DNA of 41,778 nucleotides, taken from contig JAGDXY010000024.1 in the NCBI GenBank assembly GCA_023256495.1, positions 1 through 41,778 of the forward strand. The letters are read 5' to 3'. The notes beneath the pieces were generated by a model. That model had not been told where the DNA came from. It did not search any database and saw only the letters and a program-made list of their open reading frames with translations. Below, one piece after another: positions 12,090-13,092 of this stretch (its first letter is position 1; each line of letters opens with the position of its first letter). The stretch comes from Microcaldota archaeon (GTDB lineage Archaea > Micrarchaeota > Micrarchaeia > Micrarchaeales > CABMGC01). Position numbers and translations under genes: made by a program.

Positions 12090-12201
12090 GCCGGGGTGGC
12101 GGAATCCGGTAACGCGCACGCCTGGAGAAAACAACTAGGTAGCGTGTGGCTCATCCGAGCCTTCTGGGTTCAAAATATCTATGAAAATCCCAGCCCCGGC
12201 G
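12090..12201 (+). tRNA. tRNA-Ser(GGA), two introns: 12128-12140 (37/38) and 12175-12187 (59/60)
   Basis: Acceptor GCCGGGG/CCCCGGC with G73; D stem GCG/CGC; anticodon stem CACGC/GCGTG; variable arm GGCTC-ATCC-GAGCC; T stem CTGGG/CCCAG. Removing both 13-nt inserts gives anticodon loop CTGGAGA and T-loop TTCAAAT. CCA not encoded. Confidence 0.93.
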
Positions 12202-12207
12202 TATAAA

Positions 12208-13092
12208 ATGATAAATATGATAAATAAGTATATAGCAATAGATTTGGCTTTGTTGTTTCTCTCATTAATTATATTATGGCTAGTTGATAATATAATAATT
12301 AATAGTGGCCTTCCTTATTGGATTGGAATTGCAATAAAAGTAGTTATTATAATCGCATTTGGTTATATAATAATAGAATTAATAGGTTTTGGCATATTTT
12401 CTACGCTATCAAAAAGAAAGGGACCAGGAATTAAGGAAGAGGCATTAGCGGTAAGAAATCTATTTAGGATATTTGCATATAGCATATTAATCTTATTAGT
12501 ACTTTCATACCTAAACATAAATATAACTGGGTTTATAATTGGTGCTGGTTTTCTTAGCGTTGTTGTAGGTCTTGCTGCGCAAGCATCATTAGGAAATTTC
12601 ATTGCTGGTTTAATATTATTTATAGTTAGACCATTTAGAGTAGGTGATAGGATAACGCTAGTTACTTGGCAATATGGCGTTATAGCACAAAGTTATCAAC
12701 ATGAAAGGCTAATTCCAGGTTATGAAGGCATAGTAAAATATATTGGCTTCTTTTATACCACAATATATAATGAAGAAGGTATACCTACACAGATACCAAA
12801 TTCAATAATGCTTCAAGCTATGATAATAAATCATAATAATACAAAAAAGAAAATTATAAATCTAACATTTGAAGTAAATTCAAAAGTAGATTTTAGTCAA
12901 CTAAGAGATAAGCTATATGATTTTATAACATTATTTAAAGGTGTAAATATAAGTAAAAATAATATATACATAGTTTATATAGACCATAATGCATATAGAG
13001 TTGGCGTAAAATTCATATATGAAGGTGAGCCTTATATTATTAAGTCTGCTATATTAAACTTTATTAAAAAATTTGCATCGCAAGATGAGTAA
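12208..13092 (+). CDS. MscS-family mechanosensitive ion channel
   Basis: 'GFLSVVVGLAAQASLGNFIAGLILFIVRPFRVGDRI' is the MscS pore/beta signature. ORF-track start 12181 lies in the tRNA; ATG at 12208 is preferred. Confidence 0.88.
   Translation: MINMINKYIAIDLALLFLSLIILWLVDNIIINSGLPYWIGIAIKVVIIIAFGYIIIELIGFGIFSTLSKRKGPGIKEEALAVRNLFRIFAYSILILLVLSYLNINITGFIIGAGFLSVVVGLAAQASLGNFIAGLILFIVRPFRVGDRITLVTWQYGVIAQSYQHERLIPGYEGIVKYIGFFYTTIYNEEGIPTQIPNSIMLQAMIINHNNTKKKIINLTFEVNSKVDFSQLRDKLYDFITLFKGVNISKNNIYIVYIDHNAYRVGVKFIYEGEPYIIKSAILNFIKKFASQDE

Follow-up and report, generated by a model that had tools for sequence, protein, structure and literature searches.

Transfer RNA genes carrying more than one intron have been listed for ARMAN-1 and ARMAN-2, and the epsilon2-type splicing endonuclease (EndA) is described as cleaving both bulge-helix-loop (BHL) and hBH introns at various positions of the tRNA (PMC4033280; PMC6379350; PMC12397907). 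The locus considered here is a class II tRNA with two interruptions, located at positions 12090-12201 (+ strand) of the window, a 41,778-nt stretch of DNA analysed as a whole and belonging to a 605-kb Micrarchaeota genome whose assembly is 87.7% complete. From its sequence and its conservation among relatives, it is almost certainly a functional gene for tRNA-Ser(GGA), present as a single copy and interrupted by two introns of the kind spliced by archaeal EndA, one of which sits in the T-loop, a loop that normally stays uninterrupted. Its features are as follows (counts refer to distinct tRNA-Ser(GGA) genes of the comparative set described below).

12090-12201, + strand: pre-tRNA-Ser(GGA), 112 nt, including the discriminator G73; CCA is not encoded; 86 nt once spliced; covariance model match of 102.7 bits
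12090-12127, + strand: exon 1, nucleotides 1-37 (parse and alignment)
12122-12125, + strand: central helix of the anticodon intron, 5' strand, CTGG, nucleotides 32-35; pairs with 12135-12138 (fold)
12128-12140, + strand: anticodon-loop intron (37/38), AAAACAACTAGGT, 13 nt; same place occupied in 101/104 genes
12135-12138, + strand: central helix of the anticodon intron, 3' strand, CTAG (fold)
12141-12174, + strand: exon 2, nucleotides 38-59 (3' side of the anticodon stem, variable arm, 5' side of the T-stem, TTCAAA)
12169-12172, + strand: central helix of the T-loop intron, 5' strand, TTCA, nucleotides 54-57; pairs with 12182-12185 (4/4 in 79/82)
12175-12187, + strand: T-loop intron (59/60), ATATCTATGAAAA, 13 nt; present in 82/104 genes, with precise empty sites (TTCAAAT) elsewhere
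12182-12185, + strand: central helix of the T-loop intron, 3' strand, TGAA (fold)
12188-12201, + strand: exon 3, nucleotides 60-73

All stems of the tRNA are intact (acceptor GCCGGGG/CCCCGGC, anticodon CACGC/GCGTG, variable GGCTC/GAGCC and T CTGGG/CCCAG), and removal of both introns restores the loops CTGGAGA and TTCAAAT within an 86-nt RNA with an intact cloverleaf, which ARAGORN identifies as tRNA-Ser(gga) with all stems paired. An earlier note, made from the DNA letters alone, had described a tRNA-Ser(GGA) with two introns at this site, and its coordinates and sequences for the gene, introns, loops and central helices (CTGG/CTAG and TTCA/TGAA) agree exactly with the present parse, as does its intact spliced product. 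The minimum-energy fold calculated for the spliced RNA alone lacks a cloverleaf and was left out of the evidence. Only a few bases past the tRNA begins a gene for an MscS-like channel (PF00924; window 12181-13092), the longest mechanical open reading frame of which opens within the T-loop intron; its true start is therefore probably at 12208 or later.

The two introns form the same 30-nt module, consisting of a 5-bp stem, a 4-bp central helix, a 9-nt terminal loop and a 3-nt 3' bulge, and the fold of either can be written as (((((((((.........))))...))))). The earlier note had described each as a complete 3-4-3 bulge-helix-bulge (BHB), of which the 4-bp central helices and the 3-nt 3' bulge stand, whereas the strict motif does not: no inner helix delimits the 5' bulge (0 and 1 possible pairs in the two introns) and a 9-nt loop takes its place, so that the motif of both introns is a relaxed bulge-helix-loop (hBH/BHL). 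Relaxed forms count among the archaeal BHB-type introns, and the assignment to that class stands, given that joining the exons at the predicted sites yields an intact tRNA and that in both introns a 4-bp central helix lies beside a 3-nt 3' bulge. The folding energies of the modules alone are only modestly below those of shuffled sequences (z -1.4 and -2.1), while the whole 112-nt precursor folds far better than its shuffles (z -4.5).

The enzymes for such processing are encoded in the genome. A broad-specificity splicing endonuclease in an ARMAN-type setting had been anticipated for this tRNA, and the genome search returned an epsilon2-type EndA of 375-382 aa with two PF01974 matches, an ortholog of the ARMAN-2 enzyme (4fz2; E 1.8e-120; residues 13-375 against 14-387 of 4fz2). 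The chain is a fusion of three units, with homology to ARMAN-2 EndA along its whole length, in which the catalytic triad (Y236, H251 and K282) and the lysine of the ARMAN-specific loop (ASL; K161) are present as Y226, H239, K270 and K152; both the Y/H/K triad and the ASL lysine are conserved in 30/30 relatives. EndA homologs comparable in length are found across the class in almost every family sampled, those of the outgroup family f12 being more divergent, and the T-loop intron therefore did not simply originate together with epsilon2 EndA in the order. The ligase RtcB is also encoded.

We infer the cleavage sites, the order of splicing and the ligation step as follows. After transcription, each 13-nt intron and its flanking stem would adopt the module described above, with a 5-bp exon stem, a 4-bp central helix, a 9-nt loop and a 3-nt 3' bulge. 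The homodimeric epsilon2 EndA, being tolerant of bulge-helix-loops, would cut after nucleotide 37 and before nucleotide 38, and after nucleotide 59 and before nucleotide 60, and the ligation of exons 1 to 3 would fall to RtcB. Only once the intron at 59/60 is gone could a T-loop, its modifications and the elbow between D-loop and T-loop form.

A copy of tRNA-Ser that has decayed and acquired chance insertions would be one reading opposed to a functional gene, and it finds some favor in the fact that standard tRNA finders miss the locus, as the earlier note had warned they might. ARAGORN calls no tRNA at the gene in the unspliced window, a permissive Rfam scan returns none at 12090-12201, and the Rfam tRNA model applied to the whole genome places 33 other tRNAs above the cut-off without tRNA-Ser(GGA) among them. 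The sole Rfam match at the site with E <1, to alpha_tmRNA, was dismissed as chance (9.6 bits). Against decay, every exon position is intact and this is the sole tRNA-Ser(GGA) found in the genome: no second, intact copy, which the note had named as grounds for abandoning its reading, was found in the 87.7%-complete assembly, where the next-best match is the tRNA-Ser(UGA) on contig C21, and a custom search of the genome for further intron-bearing tRNAs yielded neither a second tRNA-Ser(GGA) nor any convincing new gene. Moreover, the two insertion sites are identical across the order and are accompanied by compensatory stem changes. The comparative data thus contradict a pseudogene, to which we assign next to no probability. 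In such genomes tRNA-Ser(GGA) can seem absent when a finder makes no provision for an intron in the T-loop.

The decisive evidence for introns is, in our assessment, this comparison among relatives, above the fold energies. Genes were gathered through a DNA search of 148 relatives, a pattern scan of genomes with named records (Candidatus Micrarchaeota or Micrarchaeum in the title, plus a few labelled Marsarchaeota or uncultured archaeon) and a phylum-wide covariance-model search, and parsing of all three sources gave 104 distinct tRNA-Ser(GGA) genes. The exons are common to the relatives, while the introns vary in sequence and length: the anticodon intron (37/38; 101/104 genes) measures 10-33 nt and the T-loop intron (59/60; 82/104 genes) 13-43 nt, the 13 nt of the window copy being the shortest length in the set, equaled in one other gene. 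Across the 82 T-loop introns, 99% of the cells of the central helix pair in the proposed register, compared with 24-53% when the register is slid by 1-3 nt. In the outgroup family f12 the helix reads TTCG/CGAA or TTCG/CGGA in place of TTCA/TGAA, which includes a two-sided change at nucleotide 57. The stems spanning the introns have likewise changed in a compensatory manner (7 pairs, 50 cells, 97.8% paired versus 22-57% when slid). The central helix of the anticodon intron is looser in the relatives, with nucleotide 33 paired in 27/101 genes and all four pairs formed in just 23/101. Most relatives have at least 2 inner pairs in the T-loop intron, and some up to eleven, which indicates that the lineage does possess the strict form, of which the window copy is a reduced version.

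The same data bear on whether the T-loop insert might be retained, such that the mature tRNA carries an enlarged T-loop hairpin. The insert does fold as an extension of the T-stem, as this reading would have it, but its length ranges over 13-43 nt, it sits precisely at 59/60, the empty sites are clean and restore TTCAAAT, the EndA-type central helix and 3-nt 3' bulge are kept in 79/82 cases, and the universal contacts of the T-loop would be lost. Retention is accordingly regarded as very improbable, and excision of both introns remains the preferred reading.

Within the order, the anticodon intron is found in 84/84 genomes (family f1 36/36; family f2 48/48) and the T-loop intron in 72/84 (f1 28/36; f2 44/48), the remaining 12/84 having precise intron-less T-loops, among them genus-mates of carriers (genera g11 and g31). 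These per-genome counts include two genomes read by eye (G056 and G108); they leave aside five more genomes of the order, for which the best match is only a tRNA-Ser(UGA) or (CGA), and the named-genome sample, since its pattern scan could accommodate no more than 30 nt in the T-loop. Outside the order, the T-loop intron occurs without the anticodon intron in two genomes of f12, and both introns are missing from one outgroup genome (G215). In outgroup family f11, tRNA-Ser(CGA) lacks an anticodon intron and carries an insert of 19 nt in its T-loop. In an EndA tree of 30 genomes, which is weakly resolved overall, well-supported branches force at least 3 changes of state of the T-loop intron. Taken together, the distribution indicates that both interruptions are real and old in the lineage; in the literature searched, no description of order-wide conservation of the intron pair was found.

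An alternative history, compatible with the same splicing mechanism, is that the T-loop intron was not inherited but transposed repeatedly between tRNAs, as proposed for Thermoproteales. The presence of T-loop inserts in the tRNA-Leu(CAA) of the same genome (C15:29451-29546) and in the tRNA-Ser(CGA) of f11, as well as the patchy presence within genera, would accord with such mobility. However, the intron lies at an identical position in ~86% of genomes, across both families of the order, and its scattered absence appears to fit better with repeated loss than with repeated gain at one exact site; transposition is thus considered unlikely, though less so than retention of the insert. More tentatively, and with less than even confidence, the anticodon intron may be under selection in Micrarchaeales (84/84), while the T-loop intron, ancestral to the order or class, has been repeatedly lost. 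If this were true, the two introns would differ in fate, the anticodon intron perhaps being needed for maturation or modification and the T-loop intron being tolerated for the sole reason that epsilon2 EndA can handle bulge-helix-loops.

Other tRNAs of the genome also appear to be disrupted. The tRNA-Leu(CAA) gene carries a 10-nt T-loop insert (TTCAATATTGAATAAAT) with a TTCA/TGAA helix and is a second candidate for a T-loop intron. An apparent D-loop intron of ~21 nt (around TGGCTTATAAAGAGCCACAGA) is seen in tRNA-Leu(UAA) (C21, about 2142-2251), where the Rfam match is partial only, and C24:6494-6582 holds a tRNA with an apparent UAU (Ile) anticodon and a short intron. In tRNA-Ser(GCU) (C19:20820-20924), the D-arm and the anticodon stem are separated by additional sequence, which ARAGORN calls as a 19-nt intron at position 31 and which is a candidate for another non-canonical intron. 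The tRNAs for Phe, Tyr, Trp, Asp, Ile(GAU), Glu(UUC), Pro(GGG), Thr(UGU) and Ser(CGA) were not found in the 87.7%-complete genome, and either lie in the missing 12% or are more heavily disrupted.

Two other serine tRNAs of the order, tRNA-Ser(UGA) and tRNA-Ser(CGA), have anticodon introns of a different character. All 26 examined (20 UGA and 6 CGA, including the example in the window's own genome at C21:3912-4027) contain CUGA followed by UGAUG, and the bases directly upstream of CUGA are complementary to the tRNA's own anticodon loop. Counting upstream from CUGA, the fifth base (N+5) pairs with nucleotide 34 in 26/26 and covaries with it (A opposite U34, G opposite C34). These introns look like putative intron-encoded box C/D guides for 2'-O-methylation of the wobble base (Um34/Cm34), although part of the complementarity to the anticodon loop could serve splicing or folding instead. 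Haloferax is known to have such a guide in its tRNA-Trp intron (PMC7994747, PMC11408192), beside which the serine introns would possibly be a new case; as a lead, they may be stronger than the two-intron tRNA-Ser(GGA) itself.

Compared with the known systems, the tRNA-Ser(GGA) gene of the window is an unusually compact case of the multi-intron tRNAs of ARMAN-type archaea. Those of ARMAN-1 and ARMAN-2 (Ca. Micrarchaeum) resemble it in phylum, EndA type, non-canonical intron positions and relaxed BHL/hBH motifs, and in Ca. Micrarchaeum sp. A_DKE the tRNA-Ser(GGA) has both introns at the same sites. The splicing mechanism is well understood in outline. The present comparison adds the conservation seen across the order, the alleles that lack an intron and the covariation. 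The T-loop introns collected here span the order, share one exact site and have natural intron-free counterparts, and so offer material for testing intron gain, loss and co-evolution with EndA. Thermoproteales (Pyrobaculum and Thermofilum) likewise have two or three introns per tRNA at non-canonical positions (PMC4033280, PMC3218864), but they belong to another phylum and possess an alpha2beta2 EndA. The permuted tRNAs joined at 59/60 in Thermofilum and Cyanidioschyzon (PMC3218864) have the T-loop disrupted at the very position seen in the window; in the window tRNA, by contrast, the order of the exons is normal and an intron is merely inserted. Relative to its own relatives, the window copy has the shortest T-loop intron (13 nt) and a bulge-helix-loop where most of them keep a short inner helix or more, which suggests that an intron of the relaxed bulge-helix-loop type can be reduced to 13 nt, even in the T-loop.
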